Positions 12,482-37,103 of a stretch of 39,184 nt of DNA are shown here, one piece after another. The DNA is from Dehalococcoidia bacterium. GTDB lineage: Bacteria > Chloroflexota > Dehalococcoidia > Lucifugimonadales > GCA-2717565. A model generated the notes under the pieces. The model made no database searches and was not told the DNA's origin. It saw nothing but the letters and a program-made list of their open reading frames with translations. Where the stretch lies: NCBI GenBank assembly GCA_009692865.1, contig SHYH01000010.1, positions 1 to 39,184 of the forward strand, in the 5' to 3' direction. The position numbers were made by a program, and so were the translations under genes. Each line of letters begins with the position of its first letter. Position 1 is the first letter of the stretch.

Positions 12482-13186
12482 ATGACCAGTACGGCAATGC
12501 ATCCCTATAGTGATAACGGAGCCGCTACGTCGGCGACGCCAGTAGAAGCAAAAGAGAACGGCCAGTGGGTCTCCCTGGGCGCAGCCAGTCTTCTGCTTGG
12601 GATGAACAAGGCCACCCTTCGCCAGTGGGGGGACCGAGGGCTCATTCGCTCCTTCCGGACCCCGGGTGGGCACCGGCGCTTCTCCCGAGATGACCTGGCC
12701 CGGTTGGTGGAGGGGCCAGCCTTCCCTCGTCGGGACGGCAACCTCCAAGCAGGGAGCAGCAGCGCTCTGCAGAAGATCCGCCGCCGTCTTCACCGTTCAG
12801 GTCCCGAGGCCTTCCCCTGGCAGGCCAAGCTGGACGAGGAGGGAAGGGAGCGCCTACGGCTCTTCGGTCGGCGTCTGCTTGAGTTGGGTACACGCCGCGC
12901 CGCGCAGCCTCGTTCCAGGCCGGAGCTCATGGCTGAGGTCCGTTCGCTGGGTGAAGAGTACGGCAGGGAGTTGGCCCAACGCGGGGTGCCCCTGGAAGAG
13001 GCCATCCAGGGCTACCTCTTCTTCCGTAACTCCTACCTGGATGCCGTGGCGCAGGACCGGGACCATCAGGGGCGCCCTCCCTGGGAGGGGACACGCCTTT
13101 GGAGGCAGGCCTCGACGCTCTTGGACGCCGTGCTGGTGGCCATGATCACCGGCTACAAGGAGAATGCCGAGGCTGTGACGCCGTGA
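12482..13186 (+). CDS. MerR/BldC-like HTH regulator with a C-terminal helical domain resembling RsbRD-N
   Basis: HTH VSLGAASLLLGMNKATLRQWGDRGLIRSFRTPGGHRRFSRDDLARLV; C-terminus EEYGRELAQRGVPLEEAIQGYLFFRNSYLDAV. Confidence 0.75.
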   Translation: MTSTAMHPYSDNGAATSATPVEAKENGQWVSLGAASLLLGMNKATLRQWGDRGLIRSFRTPGGHRRFSRDDLARLVEGPAFPRRDGNLQAGSSSALQKIRRRLHRSGPEAFPWQAKLDEEGRERLRLFGRRLLELGTRRAAQPRSRPELMAEVRSLGEEYGRELAQRGVPLEEAIQGYLFFRNSYLDAVAQDRDHQGRPPWEGTRLWRQASTLLDAVLVAMITGYKENAEAVTP

Positions 13187-13424: not shown

Positions 13425-13596
13425 CGGGCCGCCTAACTTAGGGCTTAGTCACGTTGTTAGCCATACAAAGCCTACAAGGTGCCCTGCTCGTCCTTCGACA
13501 AGCTCAGGATGAGCGGACGGTAGGGAGCTGTTTAGTCGTTTCTGTGACGAAGTGCTGAGTTACCAAGGTTACATGACATTGCGTGAAGGAGGGGCT

Positions 13597-14628
13597 GTGG
13601 CAACGACCACGCGGAAGATGGACCTCCTGGACCGGACGTTGCTCAACCTGGTGCAATCGTCCTTTCCCCTGGCGCCCCTACCCTATCAGGCCCTTGGGGA
13701 GGAGTTGGGCATCCCCGAGACGGAGGTCATGGAACGCCTGGCCCGCTTGAGGAAGCGCAACGTGGTGCGACAGATCAGCGCCATCTTTGACACTCGCCGC
13801 CTGGGGTATAAGACCACTCTGGCGGCCTTTGCCTACGCGAGGGGAAAGCTCCAGAAAGGTGCGCTCCACATCAACCAGCACCCTGGGGTCAGCCACAACT
13901 ATGCGCGGGAGGGCTCCTACTACAACCTGTGGTTCACCCTGGCGGTACCACCGGAGGAGAGTCTGGAGGAGACGGTGCAGCGGATGGCCCAGGAGACCCA
14001 GGCCGAGGCCTACCGCCTGATGCCTACCATCCGCTTCTTCAAGATCGGCGTCAACTTTGACATGATAGCCGAGGAGGGCGCCTCCTACGACTACTTCCGG
14101 CCGGACGCCCCCGTCCCCTCCGCCAACGGACAGGACACTGATGCGTGGAAGCGAACCGTTCCTCTCAGCGAGTTTGACAAGGTGGTGATTCGCGAGCTCC
14201 AGGAGGACCTGCCCCTGGAGCCTCGCCCCTTCCTGCCCATAGCCCAGCGTCTGGGCCTAGTTGAGGAGGACCTTTTCCGCCTGGTCGGGGAGTTCCAACA
14301 GCGGGGCATCATGCGCCGCTACAGCGCCATCCTCTACCACCGCAGCGCCGGCTTTATGGCCAACGCCATGGTGGTTTGGCGGGTCCCTGAGGAGCGGGCC
14401 CAGGAGGTGGGTGATCTCATGGCCACCTCGCCGTGGGTCACCCACTGTTACCAGCGCCCCACCTTCCCCGACTGGCCCTACACCCACTTCACCATGATCC
14501 ACGCTACCACCAAGGAGAAGTGCGAGGAGGTGGCCGAGGACATTTCCCGACTGACGGGCATCACCGACCACCGCGTCCTCTACAGCACTCGCGAGTACAA
14601 GAAGACGCGCGTCCGGTATTTCGTGTAA
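13597..14628 (+). CDS. Fused siroheme decarboxylase (AhbA-AhbB / NirDL-type), two Lrp/AsnC-like domains
   Basis: Domain 1 PGVSHNYAREGSYYNLWFTL; domain 2 PWVTHCYQRPTFPDWPYTHFTMIHA; each preceded by an AsnC-type HTH. GTG at 13597 follows GGAGG. Confidence 0.88.
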   Translation: MATTTRKMDLLDRTLLNLVQSSFPLAPLPYQALGEELGIPETEVMERLARLRKRNVVRQISAIFDTRRLGYKTTLAAFAYARGKLQKGALHINQHPGVSHNYAREGSYYNLWFTLAVPPEESLEETVQRMAQETQAEAYRLMPTIRFFKIGVNFDMIAEEGASYDYFRPDAPVPSANGQDTDAWKRTVPLSEFDKVVIRELQEDLPLEPRPFLPIAQRLGLVEEDLFRLVGEFQQRGIMRRYSAILYHRSAGFMANAMVVWRVPEERAQEVGDLMATSPWVTHCYQRPTFPDWPYTHFTMIHATTKEKCEEVAEDISRLTGITDHRVLYSTREYKKTRVRYFV

Positions 14629-14827: not shown

Positions 14828-16222
14828 GTGCCGAACACCTTCTATCCACTGTTTCTCGACGTGCGAGGCCGCCGGTGCGTGATCCTGGGCGGCGGCCATG
14901 AGGAGGAGACCAAGGCTGAGGCCCTACTGGAGCGGGGCGCCCAGGTCACCGTCATCAACTCTGGCGTGACTGTGGCGATCCTGGACATGGCCCGAGGGGG
15001 CGCCCTCCTTTGGGAGCGGCGTCCCTATAGAGTTGGCGACTTGAAGGGGGCCTTCCTCGCCGTCGTCGAGACCGGTGACACGCCCCTCAAGGTCCGGCTT
15101 CTCCAGGAGGCCCTCGATAACAACGTCCTCCTCAACGTGGTGGACACGACGCATCTGTGCATCTGGATCGCCGCGGCCATCGTGCGACGGGGTGAGGTCA
15201 CCCTGGCCATCTCCACCGGGGGCGCAAGCCCGGCCCTGGCCCGCAAGCTTAGAGAGGGCCTGACCCGGTCCCGGGCCCTCCAGTGGGCCGACCTTGCGCT
15301 GCCGATGGCCCAGGCCCGTCTGGAGCTCAAGCGCAGAGGGGTCAGGGTGTCTGGGGAGCGGTGGCAGGCCGCCCTGAGCGATGGTCTTCTGGACCTCTAC
15401 CAGCGGGGAGAGCGGCAACAGGCGTGGGAAAGCCTGATGGCCTCCCTCGTGAACGGGGGGATGCCGATACCCCCGTCAGAAGGGGTGGCCGATGCAGAGC
15501 CCTTGGAAGATGGCGTGCTCGCTTCGGAGGACAGTGGAAATGGAAGCCACGATGGGCCCGCTGACACCCGGTACTACCCGGTCTACCTGCGCCTCCTGGG
15601 CCGCCTCTGTGTGGTCATAGGCGGGGGTGAGGTCGCCGAGCGCAAGGTGGGCCTGCTGTTGGAAAGCCAGGCCAAGGTGAAGGTCGTCAGCCCCGAGATC
15701 ACGGCAGGCCTCCAGCGCCTGGCTGGCGAAGGCGCTCTTGTCTGGGAGGCGCGCCCCTACCGGGTGGGCGACTTGAGGGGGGCCTTCCTCGCCATCGCCG
15801 CCATCAGTGACGCCGCTGTGAACCGCCGGGTGGCCCAAGAGGCGCAGTCAGAGAACGTCCTGGTCAACGTGGTGGACAACCCGCAGTTGGGGCGGTTCAT
15901 TGCTCCCTCCGTTGTGCGCCGAGGCGAGGTCATCGTGGCCATATCCACCGGCGGCGCCAGCCCTGCCCTGGCCCGCAAGCTAAAGGAGGAGCTGGCCCAA
16001 TGCCCTGAGATCCAGTGGGCCGACGCTGCTCCCCTCCTCGCCTGGGCCCGCCTGGAGCTCAGGCCCCGTGGGGTCCGCGTGAAGCCGGACCGCTGGCAGG
16101 AGTGCCTCACCGATGACCTTCTGCGCCTCTACCAGGGGGGCCGCCATGCGGAGGCCCAGGAGCGGCTTATGGCCATGCTGTTGGAGAGAGGCGAACCTGT
16201 ACCAGGCGGGAGGCTTCCCTAG
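14828..16222 (+). CDS. Tandemly duplicated precorrin-2 dehydrogenase / siroheme synthase N-terminal-like protein
   Basis: Two homologous halves, each with GGG nucleotide-binding motif, NVVD, VRRGEVxxAISTGGASPALARKL and C-terminal helical domain. Confidence 0.88.
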   Translation: MPNTFYPLFLDVRGRRCVILGGGHEEETKAEALLERGAQVTVINSGVTVAILDMARGGALLWERRPYRVGDLKGAFLAVVETGDTPLKVRLLQEALDNNVLLNVVDTTHLCIWIAAAIVRRGEVTLAISTGGASPALARKLREGLTRSRALQWADLALPMAQARLELKRRGVRVSGERWQAALSDGLLDLYQRGERQQAWESLMASLVNGGMPIPPSEGVADAEPLEDGVLASEDSGNGSHDGPADTRYYPVYLRLLGRLCVVIGGGEVAERKVGLLLESQAKVKVVSPEITAGLQRLAGEGALVWEARPYRVGDLRGAFLAIAAISDAAVNRRVAQEAQSENVLVNVVDNPQLGRFIAPSVVRRGEVIVAISTGGASPALARKLKEELAQCPEIQWADAAPLLAWARLELRPRGVRVKPDRWQECLTDDLLRLYQGGRHAEAQERLMAMLLERGEPVPGGRLP

Positions 16223-17475
16223 TGCACCTGGTGGTCGTTGGTCTCAACCATCGCACCGCTCCTCTGGAGGTCCGAGAGCAGTTTGCCTTTAGCCGCAGCG
16301 AGCTGCCTTGGGCCCTGGATGCGTTGAAGACCGCTGCCAATCAAGGGGTGGTGCTGAGCACCTGCAACCGCATGGAGGTGTACACCCTGGCCTCCTCTGC
16401 TGCTCAGGGTCGGTCCCAGGTGGAGCAGTTCTTCGCGCAGCTGGGCCGTAATCTGGAAGAGGTCTCCTCGCACCTCTATATTCTGGAGCACCTGGAGGCC
16501 GCTCGCCACCTGTTCCGGGTGGTCTGTGGGCTGGACTCCCTGATCCTGGGCGAAACCGAGATCCTGGGGCAGGCGCGAGATGCCTACGGCGCGGCGGTAG
16601 CCCAGAGGGCAGCTCGCGGCGTCATCTCCCACGTCTTCCATCACGCCCTGCGGGTGGGAAAGCGGGCCAGGCGGGAGACGGGCATCAGCCGCAACGCCCT
16701 CTCGGTGAGCGCTGCCTGCGTGGAGCTGGCCCGCCGAGCCCTGGGGGACCTGCGTGGGAAAGATGTTCTGGTCATTGGCCTGGGTGAGGCGGGCCGACTG
16801 GCGGCGCGAGCCCTGACTGCTGCGGGCGCCGGGTCTCTCACCATGACCAATCGCACCTACCAGCGGGCGGTGGAGCTGGCCGCCGAGCTGGGCGGGACCG
16901 CCGTTCCTTTGGAGGAGTTGGAATCCCTCCTGGAGCGGTCCGACGTGGTGGTCAGCACCACCGAGGCGCCTGGGTACATCTTGACGGCGGACACCCTGCG
17001 GCGCATCACGGAGCGTCGCTCGGCGCCCCTCTTCCTTGTGGACATAGCCGTGCCCCGAGACATTGACCCCGCCGTGGCTGACCTGCCCGGGGTGGTGCTT
17101 CGAGACATCGACGACCTCGAGGCGGTGTCCGAGGGGAACCGTCGCCAGCGGGAGGAGGAGGCCCAACGGGTCGAGACCATTGTGGACCAGGAGGTCCAGC
17201 GCTTCTCCCAGTGGTGGGATGGCCGGCAGGCGGTGCCCACGGTGGCGGCCTTGCGGGAGCAGGCGGAGCGGATCCGCCTGCAGGAGCTGCGCAAGACCCT
17301 GAGGCGGCTGAATCACTTTTCAGAGGAGGAGCAGCAGCGCCTGGACGCCATGACCAAAGCCATTGTGAAGAAGCTGCTGCACCCCGCCATTGCGTCGCTC
17401 CGCAACGGGGCCACGGAGGACAACGTCCGCACCCTCAGGGCCCTCTTTCGTCTGGACCAGGAGGAGCAGCGGTGA
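16222..17475 (+). CDS. hemA: Glutamyl-tRNA reductase
   Basis: LSTCNRMEVY, GLDSLILGETEILGQ, KRARRETGIS, GLGEAGRLAARAL. Confidence 0.97.
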   Translation: MHLVVVGLNHRTAPLEVREQFAFSRSELPWALDALKTAANQGVVLSTCNRMEVYTLASSAAQGRSQVEQFFAQLGRNLEEVSSHLYILEHLEAARHLFRVVCGLDSLILGETEILGQARDAYGAAVAQRAARGVISHVFHHALRVGKRARRETGISRNALSVSAACVELARRALGDLRGKDVLVIGLGEAGRLAARALTAAGAGSLTMTNRTYQRAVELAAELGGTAVPLEELESLLERSDVVVSTTEAPGYILTADTLRRITERRSAPLFLVDIAVPRDIDPAVADLPGVVLRDIDDLEAVSEGNRRQREEEAQRVETIVDQEVQRFSQWWDGRQAVPTVAALREQAERIRLQELRKTLRRLNHFSEEEQQRLDAMTKAIVKKLLHPAIASLRNGATEDNVRTLRALFRLDQEEQR

Positions 17476-18389
17476 AACGGCGCAACCGCTTGGTGGTGGG
17501 GACCAGAGGCAGCGCCCTCGCCCTCGTCCAGACCGAGGAGGTGTTCAAGGAGCTGCGCGCCGCTCACCCGGACCTGGAGTTCCAGGTCGTCACCATTAGA
17601 ACCAGTCCTGACGTCCGCCGCGAAGACCCCCTCAGCTCCTTTGACCGAGGCATGTTTGTTAAAGAGCTGGAGTATGCCCTCCTGGATAAGAAGGTGGACA
17701 TGGTGGTCCATAGCCTCAAGGATCTTCCTTCCGAGACACCCCCCCAGTTCAGCATCGCCGCCATAGGAAAAAGGCTGGATCCTCGGGACGTCCTGGTGAG
17801 TCGGGCCGGCCTCCCCCTTGCGCGGTTGCCTTCGGGGGCGCGTATTGGCACCAGCAGCCCCCGTCGGGCGTGCCAGGTTAAAGCCCTCCGGCGAGACGTG
17901 GAGATCGTCCTGATTCGCGGCAACGTGGACACCCGCCTACGCAAGGTGAGCGAGGGCCAGTACGATGCAGCCGTGGTGGCGGCGGCGGGGGTGGCTCGCC
18001 TGGGTCTGCTGGACCAGGTGAGCCAGTTCTTCTCGCCTCGGGAGATCATTCCGCCGCCTGGCCAGGGGGCCTTGGCGGTGGAGACGCGCGCCGCCGACGA
18101 GTGGGCCCAGTGGGTGGTGGGGCCCGTAAACCACCAGCCCACGGCAGTGGCCGTCACGGCGGAACGGGCCTTTATGGCCCGCCTGGGGGCTGGATGTCGC
18201 GTGCCCTTTGCCGCCTACGGCGAGGTGACCGCCGAGGGGCTCAAGCTTGTCGGACTCATCTCGGACACCGATGGAGAGCGCTGCTTCACTACCGACATCC
18301 AGGGAGATCCTGCGCGCGCCGAGGAGCTGGGCGTAGAGCTGGCCGAGCGGCTCCTCTCCGCGGGCGCTCGCGACCTGGTGGAGACGTAG
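17472..18389 (+). CDS. hemC: Porphobilinogen deaminase (hydroxymethylbilane synthase)
   Basis: VVGTRGSALALVQTEEV, HSLKDLPSE, RIGTSSPRRACQ, LGAGCRVPFAAY; GTG start overlaps hemA stop by 4 nt. Confidence 0.96.
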   Translation: MKRRNRLVVGTRGSALALVQTEEVFKELRAAHPDLEFQVVTIRTSPDVRREDPLSSFDRGMFVKELEYALLDKKVDMVVHSLKDLPSETPPQFSIAAIGKRLDPRDVLVSRAGLPLARLPSGARIGTSSPRRACQVKALRRDVEIVLIRGNVDTRLRKVSEGQYDAAVVAAAGVARLGLLDQVSQFFSPREIIPPPGQGALAVETRAADEWAQWVVGPVNHQPTAVAVTAERAFMARLGAGCRVPFAAYGEVTAEGLKLVGLISDTDGERCFTTDIQGDPARAEELGVELAERLLSAGARDLVET

Positions 18390-18391
18390 GC

Positions 18392-19921
18392 ATGGCAGGA
18401 AAGGTGTACCTGGTGGGCGCCGGGCCTGGCGACCCCGAGCTCCTGACCCTCAAAGGGCTGCGGTGCCTTCAAGGGGCCGACGTCGTTGTCTACGATCGCC
18501 TGGTGGACCCCCGCATCCTGCGGCACGCCGTTGAAGGCGCCCAGCTCATCGACGTGGGCAAGGCCCGAGGGGAGCGCCGCATGTCCCAGGAGGATATCAA
18601 CGCCCTCCTGGTGGAGCTGGCCGCCCAGGGCAAGCAGGTGGTGCGTCTGAAGGGGGGCGACCCCTTTGTCTTTGGGCGCGGAGGCGAGGAGGCCATGGTC
18701 TTGGCCCGGGCGGGCGTCCCCTTCGAGGTGGTGCCCGGCGTTACGTCGGCCATCGCCGTGCCGGCCTATGCGGGCATTCCCCTGACGTACCGGCAGGTTG
18801 CCTCCTCGTTTATTGTCGTGAGCGGCTCGGAGGACCCTGGCAAGGAGGAGACCTTCGTGGACTGGGAGCACCTGGCCTCCAGTCGCGGCACCCTGGTCGT
18901 CCTCATGGGGTGGGAGGCCTTGCCCGGCATCGTGGAGGTTCTCCTAGCCAAGGGGCGCAGCCCTGGAACGCCTGTGGCCCTCATCCGCTGGGGGACCGAG
19001 CCCTACCAGCAGACGGTCACCGGCACCCTGGCGACCATCCTGGAGCAGGGGCGCGACGTAGGCCTCGCTCCCCCGGTGATCGCGGTCATTGGAGAGGTGG
19101 TCTCCCTGCGGGATCACCTCCGCTGGTTTGACAACCGCCCCCTCTTCGGCAAGCGGGTCCTGGTGACACGCTCACGCGTCCAGGCCAGCGCCTTGTCTCG
19201 CCTGCTGGAGCAGGAGGGGGCCCTGCCGGTAGAGCTTCCCACCATCGAGGCCCTGTCTTCGGAGAGCTTCACCGCCCTGGATGGAGCCCTGGAGCGTCTG
19301 GCTGACTACCAGTGGGTGGTGTTCACCAGCGTCAACGGCGTGCGGTTCTTCTTTGAGCGTCTCCGACACCTGGGAAAGGACGCCCATGCGCTGGCATCGG
19401 TGCAGGTGGCGGCCATCGGCCCTGCCACGGCCCATGCGCTGGAGGCCGAGACGGTCCGGCCGGACCTGGCGCCCAAGGAGTACCTCTCGTCGAAGATCGT
19501 GGAGGCCTTCCAGGGCATCGACCTGCAAGGTCGCCGTGTGCTTCTGTCCCGGGCCGACCTGGCCGGTCGTGACTTGCCCCAGGGGTTGCGCGATAGAGGG
19601 GCGTTGGTGGACGATATACCCGTCTACCGCACCCTCACGCCCGAGGAGAGCCGGCAGGCCGTGCACACTCTCTCTGATGGGCCCAAGGTGGACATCGTCA
19701 CCTTCACCAGCTCCTCCACGGTCCGCAACCTGCTTGCCCTTCTGGACGGAGACAAGCGTCTCTTGGAGGGCGCCTGCATCGCCTGCATCGGGCCCGTCAC
19801 CGCCGAGACTGCCCAAGAGCTTGGGCTCCGGGTGGACGTGGTAGCCCGGGAGCACACCATCCCAGGGTTGGTTGCTGCGTTGAAGGAGCACTTCGCCCGC
19901 TCCTCTGACGCTGTCCTTTAG
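18392..19921 (+). CDS. Uroporphyrinogen-III C-methyltransferase / uroporphyrinogen-III synthase fusion (CobA-HemD)
   Basis: SUMT motifs VYLVGAGPGDPELLTLKG, RLKGGDPFVFGRGGEE, VPGVTSA followed by HemD domain (VFTSVNGVRFFF, TFTSSSTVRNLL). Confidence 0.95.
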   Translation: MAGKVYLVGAGPGDPELLTLKGLRCLQGADVVVYDRLVDPRILRHAVEGAQLIDVGKARGERRMSQEDINALLVELAAQGKQVVRLKGGDPFVFGRGGEEAMVLARAGVPFEVVPGVTSAIAVPAYAGIPLTYRQVASSFIVVSGSEDPGKEETFVDWEHLASSRGTLVVLMGWEALPGIVEVLLAKGRSPGTPVALIRWGTEPYQQTVTGTLATILEQGRDVGLAPPVIAVIGEVVSLRDHLRWFDNRPLFGKRVLVTRSRVQASALSRLLEQEGALPVELPTIEALSSESFTALDGALERLADYQWVVFTSVNGVRFFFERLRHLGKDAHALASVQVAAIGPATAHALEAETVRPDLAPKEYLSSKIVEAFQGIDLQGRRVLLSRADLAGRDLPQGLRDRGALVDDIPVYRTLTPEESRQAVHTLSDGPKVDIVTFTSSSTVRNLLALLDGDKRLLEGACIACIGPVTAETAQELGLRVDVVAREHTIPGLVAALKEHFARSSDAVL

Positions 19922-20076: not shown

Positions 20077-21063
20077 ATGTCCGTGTTCCCTGACCTCCGC
20101 CTGCGCCGCCTGCGGAAGACCGAGCCCCTGCGCCGCTTGGTGCAGGAGACCTACCTGTCGGTGGGCGACTTCATCTGTCCCGTCTTTGTCACCCACGGGA
20201 GGAATGTGCGACAGGAGATTCCCCCCATGCCCGGCTTCGAGCAGCTCTCCCTGGACCATCTGGCCCGAGAGGTGACGGAGATCGCAGGGCTGGGCATCCC
20301 TGCCGTCCTCCTCTTTGGCCTCCCGGAGGCCAAAGACCCTCAGGGTTCCGGCGCCTACGCTGGCAAGGGCATCGTCCAGGAGGCCGTCCGCCTCATCAAG
20401 CGTGAGACGCCCCACCTGGTGGTCATCACCGATGTCTGCCTCTGCGAGTACACCGACCACGCCCACTGTGGGGTGCTCTTAGACAACGGGGTGGTGGACA
20501 ACGACCGCAGCGTGGAGCTTCTGGCCCGCACGGCTCTCTCCCACGCGGAGGCGGGCGCCGATGTGGTGGCTCCTTCGGCCATGATGGACGGCCAGGTGGC
20601 CGCCGTCCGTGAGGCCCTGGACGAGGCTGGCCTGGATGACACGCCCATCCTGGCCTACGCCGCCAAGTACGCCTCTGGGTTCTACGGCCCCTTCCGCGTG
20701 GCGGCCGAGTCGTCCCCCCAGACGGGCGACCGCCGGGGCTACCAGATGGACCCCGCCAACGTGCGGGAGGCCCTGCGGGAGATCGAGCTGGACATCCAGG
20801 AGGGGGCCGACATGGTGATGGTCAAGCCCGCCCTGGCCTACCTGGACGTCATCGCCCGCGCCCGCCAGGAGTTCGACGAGCCCCTGGCCGCCTACAACGT
20901 TAGCGGCGAGTATGCTATGGTGAAGGCTGCCGAGCGCCTGGGGTGGCTGGACGGACGTCGTGCCACCCTGGAGATCCTCACGGCCATCAAACGCGCGGGC
21001 GCCGACCTGATCATCACCTACCACGCCAAAGAGGCGGCGCGATGGCTACGGGGAGAGGGGTAG
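20077..21063 (+). CDS. hemB: Delta-aminolevulinic acid dehydratase (porphobilinogen synthase)
   Basis: [14 protein letters not shown] zinc-ligand region, [18 protein letters not shown]. Confidence 0.97.
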
Positions 21064-21768: not shown

Positions 21769-23073
21769 ATGAACACCGCCAAATCGGCGCGTCTCTACCA
21801 GGAGGCGCAAGCCCAAATCCCGGGTGGGGTCAACAGCCCGGCCCGCTCCTTCAAGGGCGTGGGCATGGACTACCCCCTTTTCATTCGCCGGGGCCAGGGC
21901 GCCCATATCTGGGACGCCGACGGCAACGAGTATGTGGACTTCGTGGGCTCCTGGGGACCCCTCATCCTGGGCCACGCCCACCCTCGGGTGGTGGAGGCCC
22001 TCCAAAAGGCCATTCGGGACGGCACCAGCTTCGGTGCCCCCACGGAGCTGGAGGTGGAGCTGGCCCACCTCGTCCGCCAGGCCTTCCCTTCCATGGAGAT
22101 GGTGCGCCTGGTGAGCTCAGGGACCGAAGCCACCATGAGCGCCGTCCGCCTGGCCCGGGCCTTCACGGGCCGCACCAAGCTCGTCAAGTTCGCGGGGTGC
22201 TACCACGGCCACGCCGACGCCCTGCTGGTGCGGGCGGGATCGGGCCTGGCCACCCACGGCATTCCCACCAGCGCCGGAGTGCCCGACGCCTACGTTCAGG
22301 AGACCCTGGTGGCCGAGTACAACGACCTGGCGTCGGTGGAGCGCCTGTTTGAGTCCTATCCGAAGGCCATCGCGGGGGTCATCGTGGAGCCCGTGGCGGG
22401 CAACATGGGTGTGGTCCCTCCCAAGCCAGGCTTTCTTGAGGGGCTGCACCGCCTCACCCAGGAGCACGGCGCCCTCCTGGTCCTGGACGAGGTGATCACC
22501 GGCTTTCGCATCGCCTATGGAGGCGCCCAGGAGCGGTACGGCGTCCACGCGGATATCACCTGTCTTGGCAAGGTTATCGGCGGCGGGCTGCCTGTGGGCG
22601 CCTACGGCGGCTCCCGCGAAATCATGGCCCAGGTGGCTCCCCTGGGGCCGATGTACCAGGCGGGAACCCTTTCGGGCAACCCCCTGGCCGTCACGGCGGG
22701 CATTGAGACCCTCAAGGCCCTCCAGGCGCCCGGCGTGTACGATGCCCTGGAGGAGAAGGGGGCGCGGGTAGAGGTGGGCCTGACTGCCGCCGCCCGGGAG
22801 GCGGCAGTGCCCCTCATCGTCAACCGCGTGGGCTCCATGCTCACCGCCTTCTTCCACCCGGGCCCTGTGCAGACCTGGGAGGAGGTCAACACATCGGACA
22901 GGGAGCAGTACGCTCGCTTTTTCCGGAGCATGCTGAGGCAGGGAATGTACCTGGCGCCTTCCCAGTTTGAGGCTGCCTTCCTCTCCCTGGCCCACTCCCC
23001 GGAGGATCTCGAGAGGGCAATCCAAGCAGCCAAGCTTGCCCTACGCGACGTCGCGCAAAGGGCCCAGTCGTAA
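21769..23073 (+). CDS. hemL: Glutamate-1-semialdehyde 2,1-aminomutase
   Basis: [52 protein letters not shown]. Confidence 0.97.
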
Positions 23074-25433: not shown

Positions 25434-26438
25434 CTAGGCGATGAGTTGCCTCACCCACACGTCCGCTACCAGCCCCAGGAAGGTAAGCCCTAGGAAAGGA
25501 TAGGCCGAGACCCGGAACAGCTTGAAAGATGCGGCGGCGTTGTTCTCTCGCAAAATCCGGTAGCAGCCGTACACCATCAAGGGGCCTACCGCGTTGGCCA
25601 CCAGAAAGTAGACCCAGCCGAAGCCACCTAAGGCCCATAGAGCCAGGGAGGCCGCATACATGAATGCCGAGAGGCCAAGAGAGATCTGGGAGGTGAGGCG
25701 AACGCTCTTGTCCAGGGGGAAGATGTTCACCCCAGCCTGAAGATAGTCCTCCCGGTAGGCGATCATCAGGTTCCACACGTGGACTGGGACCCAGACCAGG
25801 ATAATGACGGTGATGAGCACAACGGTGGCGTCCACTCTTGGGGTCATGGCGAACCAGCCCACTAGAATGGGGCCGGTGCTGGAGACGGAGCCCAGGAAGT
25901 GGGTCACCCAGGTCTTGCGACCCACCACGGCAGCCGTCACTCCTACCAGGCCCGCCGCAAAGGCATAGGGATGGAGGGCCAAGGCGATAGCCAGGGCCGC
26001 GATCACCAGCAGAAGGGACCAGGCCAGGGCCTGGGGGGGTGTGATCAACCCGGACGGCAGCACCCGTCGGCGGGTCCGCTTCATCTGGATGTCTATATGA
26101 CGGTCCAGGTAGTTGGTCAGGCCGTTGGCGCCACCGCTGCCAATCAGGATGGTGGTGAGGGCCAGCAGGAACCGTCCCCAGGGTGGCGCCCCCTGGCTCG
26201 CCACCAGGATGGTGCAGCCGCCGATGAGGGTGAGAAGCGCTGTCTCGCGGGGCTTCAGGACCCTGATGTAGCACACCAGGGGGTGCTCCTTCCAGGTGGG
26301 ACGGGACACAACGGAAGGCGCCTGTGTTAGAGCAGGGTTGCTGCGGGTCGCGCCACTGGAAGAGATTCCTGCCACCTGTTGAATCCTCCGGTACGAGTCT
26401 ACTCTTTGGGCCTGGACGCCAACAATGCTCTTGCCCAA
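25434..26438 (-). CDS. ctaB: Protoheme IX farnesyltransferase (heme O synthase, CtaB/COX10)
   Basis: UbiA-family NGLTNYLDRHIDIQMKRTRRRVLPSG and about 9 TMs. Confidence 0.95.
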   Translation of the reverse strand: MGKSIVGVQAQRVDSYRRIQQVAGISSSGATRSNPALTQAPSVVSRPTWKEHPLVCYIRVLKPRETALLTLIGGCTILVASQGAPPWGRFLLALTTILIGSGGANGLTNYLDRHIDIQMKRTRRRVLPSGLITPPQALAWSLLLVIAALAIALALHPYAFAAGLVGVTAAVVGRKTWVTHFLGSVSSTGPILVGWFAMTPRVDATVVLITVIILVWVPVHVWNLMIAYREDYLQAGVNIFPLDKSVRLTSQISLGLSAFMYAASLALWALGGFGWVYFLVANAVGPLMVYGCYRILRENNAAASFKLFRVSAYPFLGLTFLGLVADVWVRQLIA

Positions 26439-36939: not shown

Positions 36940-36990
36940 AACGCCACCTTCCTCTTCGCTCAGTATAGTCGAAAGCTTTGTAGATCACCC

Positions 36991-37045
36991 TTCGACAAGC
37001 TCAGGATGAGCGGGTTTGAATACCGCTCATCCTGAGCTTGTCGAA
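36991..37045. repeat. Inverted repeat, 23-bp arms TTCGACAAGCTCAGGATGAGCGG / CCGCTCATCCTGAGCTTGTCGAA
   Basis: Perfect arms, 9-nt loop; the same 23-mer occurs at 13494-13516. Confidence 0.92.
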
Positions 37046-37103
37046 CCATGAGCCCCATAGTCCCCGCTCCTTTGATGGGAGAGGGCTAGGCTGAGGGTGC
37101 CCC

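Follow-up and report, generated by a model that had tools for sequence, protein, structure and literature searches.

The reaction of the siroheme decarboxylase AhbA/AhbB has been assigned for the enzyme of Desulfovibrio desulfuricans (PDB 4czd, 4un1), in which the two proteins are separate subunits; HXYXR is the catalytic motif, and Arg102 of AhbB is essential (PMC4145669). Non-methanogenic archaea as a rule have AhbAB in fused form (PMC3942049, PMC3004389, PMC11237513), and in Hydrogenobacter thermophilus the one-chain protein NirDL (PDB 4ch7) took its name from the heme d1/nir context. The heme route of Haloferax volcanii uses AhbAB and ChdC and lacks UroD, CgoX and CpfC (PMC5746218); this archaeon also has AhbC and AhbD. 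For Sulfolobus acidocaldarius, Haloquadratum walsbyi and Nitrosopumilus maritimus, Storbeck et al. (2010) described siroheme-decarboxylase genes without NirJ-like (AhbC/AhbD) genes, and raised the question whether these three archaea synthesize heme (PMC3004389). The Haloferax authors later left room for an unidentified route to coproheme (2017; PMC5746218).

A fused AhbAB heads a tetrapyrrole gene cluster

The stretch of DNA analyzed here (the window; 39,184 nucleotides) is contig C56 of the genome of a SAR202/Dehalococcoidia bacterium (G000; 1.41 Mb, 75 contigs, 82.7% complete). An open reading frame extends over 13552-14628 and has a GTG start at 13597. This GTG is directly preceded by a Shine-Dalgarno sequence, AAGGAGGGG, and we therefore regard 13597-14628 (343 amino acids) as good coordinates for the gene. 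As the initial annotation had proposed, the gene heads a tetrapyrrole cluster, with sirC, hemA, hemC, cobA-hemD, hemB and hemL downstream on the same strand:

12482-13186, plus strand: HTH protein of MerR type (Pfam MerR_1, residues 31-75) whose C-terminal domain is conserved and un-named
13597-14628, plus strand: ahbAB, predicted single-chain siroheme decarboxylase (NF040708, NF040707, PF17805 twice, PDB 4ch7, AlphaFold model); in the 343-residue protein, AhbA half at about residues 12-156 and AhbB half at about 197-341
14828-16222, plus strand: sirC/Met8p-type precorrin-2 dehydrogenase, tandemly duplicated in one chain (TIGR01470, 269 bits, two stretches)
16222-17475, plus strand: hemA, glutamyl-tRNA reductase (TIGR01035, 414.8 bits)
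17472-18389, plus strand: hemC, hydroxymethylbilane synthase, with an approximate start (TIGR00212, 324 bits, the match beginning at residue 94 of ORF 17211-18389)
18386-19921, plus strand: cobA-hemD fusion, uroporphyrinogen-III methyltransferase/synthase, start approximate (NF004790, 317 bits; PF02602, 222 bits)
20077-21063, plus strand: hemB, porphobilinogen synthase (NF006762, 491 bits)
21769-23073, plus strand: hemL, glutamate-1-semialdehyde aminomutase (NF000818, 652 bits)
25434-26438, minus strand: heme o synthase of the UbiA family, ctaB/cyoE-like (PF01040, 136 bits; TIGR01473, 164 bits, short of its curated cut-off, 210)

The ctaB-like gene at 25434-26438 suggests that heme b may be put to downstream use in a terminal oxidase.

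Three further features of the window deserve mention. The SirC/Met8p protein (14828-16222) is a chain of 464 amino acids with halves that are 53% identical, and is the sole duplicated copy among 69 homologues. Its dinucleotide-binding loop reads GGGHEEETKAEAL in the first half vs GGGEVAERKVGLL in the second, and because of this difference one half may be non-catalytic. The MerR-type protein (12482-13186) has a conserved C-terminal domain of ~150 amino acids without any Pfam match; a homologue adjoins ahbAB in many related loci (a cluster of 39 loci), and the protein may be a tetrapyrrole-responsive regulator of the cluster. Lastly, an intergenic repeat, CCTTCGACAAGCTCAGGATGAGCGG, is found at 13492-13516, 36989-37013 (plus strand) and 37023-37047 (minus strand), recurs in other loci (L001, L065, L096, L218), and looks like a REP-type element.

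Both halves of the protein resemble a siroheme decarboxylase

The two halves of the protein were recognized by separate NCBIfam equivalogs, AhbA by NF040708 (257.6 bits, cut-off 140; residues 27-171 of the longer ORF) and AhbB by NF040707 (250.4 bits, cut-off 125; residues 212-356). The initial annotation had described AhbA-like and AhbB-like domains within one ORF, and indeed both halves score far above the curated cut-offs. In Pfam terms, the protein contains PF17805 (AsnC_trans_reg2) and NirdL-like_HTH, each twice. Its best solved relative is the Hydrogenobacter NirDL chain (PDB 4ch7), to which it aligns co-linearly over the full length at 251 bits, followed by the Desulfovibrio AhbA and AhbB chains. 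The AlphaFold model (pLDDT 92.5) gave the same picture, with 4ch7/4czc as the top fold matches and 4czd AhbA/AhbB next. The protein shares length, domain order and fold with the Hydrogenobacter protein at 36% identity, while in the fold comparison its halves are 39% and 35% identical to the Desulfovibrio proteins, which differ in being two subunits rather than a single chain. An HXYXR motif is present in each half, as HNYAR in the AhbA half and HCYQR in the AhbB half, and both motifs are kept across the 31 homologue sequences of our alignment.

Both halves have an HTH fold and are matched by Lrp-type models at E 1e-8, features that would fit a regulator of the AsnC/Lrp type instead of an enzyme. 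These matches, however, reach only ~30 bits compared with 250 for AhbA/AhbB, and the catalytic motifs of both halves are conserved in all 31 sequences, so that a regulator is scarcely credible. The sequence shows the enzyme family, the motifs and the siroheme-precursor gene cluster, and we strongly infer that AhbAB acts on siroheme by decarboxylating C12 and C18.

A fused AhbAB has been described before and does not distinguish the SAR202/Dehalococcoidia lineage. Separate AhbA and AhbB proteins had initially been taken as the usual arrangement; this view had to be abandoned, as fusion is standard in non-methanogen archaea and was the only form among the relatives that we searched, with AhbAB in 24 of 59 genomes and a single-frame fusion in all 24. 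The archaeal proteins (Ahb-NirDH) have the same order of AhbA and AhbB halves, both HXYXR motifs and siroheme-precursor genes. They differ from the window protein, which is bacterial and has Gly in place of His two residues after the HXYXR motif of the AhbA half. This His of HNYxRxH is Gly in most Dehalococcoidia AhbAB proteins and is kept in archaea and other phyla. We considered and rejected a functional meaning for the change, which tracks lineage and is also found in a relative that has AhbC (G013). An AhbAB-like fusion also adjoins two radical SAM genes on a Paenibacillus polymyxa plasmid (pSb31l; L325, 3777-6984).

Heme b is the likely product

The resemblance to NirDL raises the question of heme b or heme d1. 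The initial annotation had favored heme b, pointing to the siroheme-precursor genes around AhbAB and the lack of a visible nir gene, and both observations hold within the window. In the whole genome (83% complete), a search for NirJ/AhbC/AhbD-like radical SAM proteins returned nothing better than a MoaA-like match of 56 bits, and neither HemE nor HemH was found. The genome search proposed at the outset thus bore out the absence of NirJ; it did not find AhbC, AhbD or ChdC. A complete HemE/F/G/H pathway with no AhbC had been named as evidence against heme b: AhbC was indeed absent, and so were HemE and HemH.

In phylogenetic trees of each half, the AhbA and AhbB halves of the window protein group with AhbAB homologues of Dehalococcoidia/SAR202, in agreement with its nearest named homologues, which come from MAGs of the SAR202 cluster/Dehalococcoidia. 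Proteobacterial NirDL, NirG and NirH fall on separate branches, the Nir sequences here being from Ruegeria and Azospirillum (annotated nir operons) and Cupriavidus (an unannotated record), and Hydrogenobacter NirDL has a long branch that lies closer to the AhbAB side. Among the relatives, HemH was found in 15 genomes, none of them with AhbAB (one AhbAB genome, G030, has a HemH match of 32 bits), and HemE in only five, all without AhbAB. This mutual exclusion of HemH and AhbAB is the expected outcome if AhbAB replaces the classical heme b route.

If the protein were of NirDL type and supplied heme d1 to a cytochrome cd1 nitrite reductase, its co-linear, full-length match to the Hydrogenobacter protein at 36% identity would be explained. 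We nevertheless consider this very improbable: NirJ is absent from the genome and from most relatives carrying AhbAB, no NirG/NirH partner genes adjoin ahbAB in the window, the cluster makes siroheme precursors only, and NirDL/G/H from annotated proteobacterial nir operons branch separately. Hydrogenobacter NirDL differs from the window protein in this genomic context, the latter being without nirJ. The initial preference for heme b thus gains from the absence of NirJ, from the position of both halves in the trees and from the exclusion of HemH by AhbAB. Given that NirJ, HemE and HemH were not found in the genome, and that HemH and AhbAB are exclusive among relatives, heme b is the likely product, and the window protein is very probably a single-chain AhbA-AhbB siroheme decarboxylase serving heme b in this SAR202/Dehalococcoidia bacterium.

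Ten relatives (G001, G003, G012, G016, G027, G028, G032, G034, G053, G057) have HemH without HemE over the cut-off, AhbAB or ChdC, a pattern suggestive of salvage of porphyrins or of a route yet unseen.

AhbC is missing from most of the fused-AhbAB genomes examined

We then compared the later steps of the pathway across genomes, most of which are MAGs. In profile searches, AhbC was present in 7 of the 24 AhbAB relatives and absent from 17, including the genome of the window, while ChdC was present in 21. A second set of 50 further fused-AhbAB genomes of several phyla, reached through named loci, gave a similar result: 11 with AhbC and 39 without, 46 with ChdC and none with HemH. Among the AhbC-less genomes are Nitrososphaera, Nitrosocaldus and other Nitrososphaerota (ammonia-oxidizing archaea), as well as records titled as chromosomes (OY282456, OX638345, OX638292, OX638325). 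Sulfolobus acidocaldarius and Deinobacterium chartae, members of the control panels, match PF17805 and PF06778; HemH and HemE were not detected in them, nor was AhbC at E 1e-25. In the examined stretches of AhbC-less relatives, no AhbC was found near ahbAB or chdC. ChdC was not found in the window's own genome (82.7% complete), and we assume that it is missing from the assembly rather than from the organism.

The combination met most often in the fused-AhbAB genomes that we searched is therefore AhbAB with ChdC and with neither AhbC nor ferrochelatase. Most of them differ from Haloferax volcanii in having neither AhbC nor AhbD. In most of these organisms, there is thus no known enzyme for the step from didecarboxysiroheme to coproheme, the compound on which ChdC depends. 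Another explanation would be a canonical Ahb pathway whose genes for AhbC and AhbD (or ChdC) fall within the 17% of the genome missing from the assembly, and nothing else needed. The genome is indeed incomplete (82.7%, 75 contigs), ChdC is missing too, and 7 of 24 AhbAB relatives do have AhbC. Yet 17 of 24 relatives and 39 of 50 further genomes have no AhbC, records titled as chromosomes among them, and the lack of both NirJ-like genes in S. acidocaldarius and N. maritimus was reported as early as 2010 (PMC3004389). We thus find this explanation unlikely.

HemY-type oxidases were also considered and rejected, AhbAB genomes holding generic FAD proteins only. What is new here is the AhbC-less pathway and its candidate, a protein of the aldo/keto reductase (AKR) family described below; the window enzyme is a bacterial representative of an enzyme type already known.

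An AKR accompanies AhbAB where AhbC is missing

A profile was built from ten ahb/chdC-linked AKRs, and matches over 420 bits were counted as orthologues. The window's own genome has one (448.6 bits; C46:34116-35084, outside the window). An orthologue was present in 23 of the 24 AhbAB relatives (22 of 23 without G024, which supplied one profile row and has the AKR by construction) compared with 2 of the 35 remaining relatives, both of which have ChdC and one of which has a partial copy. This corresponds to a Fisher p of 4.7e-13 over the 59 relatives, in a test that ignores kinship within one order. All 17 AhbC-less AhbAB relatives have the AKR, the window's own genome included, as do all 23 ChdC genomes without HemE/HemH, compared with 0 of the 5 genomes of the coproporphyrin-pathway kind (HemE/HemH with ChdC). 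The only AhbAB relative without the AKR, G013, has AhbC and AhbD and no ChdC. In the second set, the AKR was found in 47 of 50 genomes (40 of 43 without the seven that supplied profile rows, where its presence is by construction) and in 38 of the 39 AhbC-less ones; of the three genomes without it, two are exactly the two that have AhbC and no ChdC.

The AKR gene also lies less than 900 bases from chdC in Nitrososphaerota, two Actinomycetota, one Pseudomonadota MAG and one Chloroflexota MAG. In several ammonia-oxidizing archaea the order is ahbAB, AKR-family gene, DUF1802 gene, chdC, and in the Chloroflexota MAG it is AKR-chdC-ahbAB.

The association could be a by-product of lifestyle or shared ancestry, with aerobic lineages keeping both genes; members of an order share ancestry, for which the Fisher test makes no correction. 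However, families f1, f11 and f14 each include one genome with both AhbAB and the AKR and one with neither, and in family f13 AhbC and the AKR are swapped, which makes shared ancestry alone a poor explanation. The exceptions with AhbC and no ChdC also occur in unrelated lineages (G013 and G071, Chloroflexota; G098, a Bacillota MAG), the AhbAB-AKR pairing recurs in Nitrososphaerota, Actinomycetota, Armatimonadota and Omnitrophota, and the AKR shows operon-like adjacency. A mere by-product thus seems improbable to us.

Other neighbors were examined and rejected as candidates. DUF1802 is much weaker (12 of 24 AhbAB genomes vs 7 of 35 others, p = 0.02) and absent from the genome of the window. Protein-isoaspartate methyltransferase, MFS transporter, ferredoxin, Lrp regulator, aconitase and siroheme-dependent reductase genes reflect local synteny and are not pathway-specific. 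Plasmids as a route of the AKR to haloarchaea were likewise dismissed, as they carry only distant AKRs (identity ≤34%). DUF1802-AKR pairs occur in archaea, a Pseudomonadota MAG and SAR202 (L155, L164, L167, L170, L172; L205-L212; L286-L303), DUF1802 also adjoins AKR paralogues in G006 and G031, and a small PRK00809-like (EVE-type) gene adjoins the AKR in 12 of 20 loci (for example L285).

The AKR orthologues match PF00248 over their full length (174-192 bits). The catalytic tetrad is kept in the protein from the window's genome (Asp52/Tyr57/Lys82/His130), and some archaeal copies have Glu in place of the tetrad Asp. Compared with five lower-scoring AKRs, the subfamily has as invariants W27-W28-G29 and D235-H236-R237-x-x-R240 with W244; WWG and DHRxxR occur together in 53 of 54 orthologues and 0 of 5 paralogues. 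Weaker paralogues (261-324 bits) nest within the AKR tree on long branches, as diverged paralogues would, and the border of the subfamily is for this reason drawn by score and motifs. The model (pLDDT 77.8, built from seven sequences) is nearest in fold to AKR11 enzymes (IolS, 1pyf; AKR11B4, 3n2t), which share the fold and the tetrad at ~30% identity, whereas the WWG and DHRxxR signatures belong to the ahb-linked subfamily. We found no curated NCBIfam family and no solved member for this subfamily.

A candidate aerobic route from siroheme to heme b

Co-occurrence and gene neighborhood lead us to lean, with moderate confidence, towards the AKR being an O2-tolerant, non-radical-SAM didecarboxysiroheme deacetylase that replaces AhbC and defines an aerobic siroheme route to heme b. 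CobA and SirC, both present as genes, would make siroheme, a function taken from knowledge of their families. AhbAB would convert siroheme to 12,18-didecarboxysiroheme. The AKR, working with no radical SAM Fe-S cluster, would then strip this compound of its two acetates on rings A and B to give coproheme. ChdC, not found in the window's own genome, would then convert coproheme to heme b. The end of the route would thus be a hybrid in SAR202 and other lineages, consisting of AhbAB, a replacement for AhbC, and ChdC. By formula, didecarboxysiroheme and coproheme differ by C4H8O4, that is, by two acetic acids. Their loss is redox-neutral, and the step therefore needs catalysis and no net oxidant; conceivably, NADP(H) could serve as a catalytic hydride relay with no Fe-S cluster. 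AKRs reduce carbonyl groups with NAD(P)H, and we know of none that cleaves a tetrapyrrole C-C bond; nor did we find a literature report of an AKR in the step from didecarboxysiroheme to coproheme.

The occurrence of the AKR also in genomes with AhbC speaks against such a role. By analogy with AhbD and ChdC in Haloferax (PMC5746218), we read genomes with both sets as possibly having an anaerobic branch (AhbC/AhbD) and an aerobic branch (AKR/ChdC). Another explanation would be if the AKR aided ChdC or another step of the aerobic route, for example by redox supply, with AhbC being replaced by a third, unseen protein or by ChdC itself. Consistent with this, the AKR gene adjoins chdC in four phyla, and the AKR follows not only AhbAB but also ChdC, being present in each of the 23 ChdC genomes without HemE/HemH. 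Its absence from the five genomes with HemE/HemH and ChdC, however, implies that ChdC as such needs no AKR, and DUF1802, the other conserved neighbor, tracks AhbAB far less (12 of 24 vs 7 of 35). We regard a helper role as possible and rather doubtful.

Together with the deacetylase assignment, and with the same moderate confidence, we propose that the series CobA/SirC, AhbAB, AKR and ChdC is used by SAR202/Dehalococcoidia, ammonia-oxidizing archaea, scattered Actinomycetota, Armatimonadota, Omnitrophota and others. If this is true, the AKR fills the AhbC gap that has been noted since 2010, and would complete heme synthesis for ammonia-oxidizing archaea and SAR202. It would also represent new chemistry for the AKR family, which is known for carbonyl reduction.
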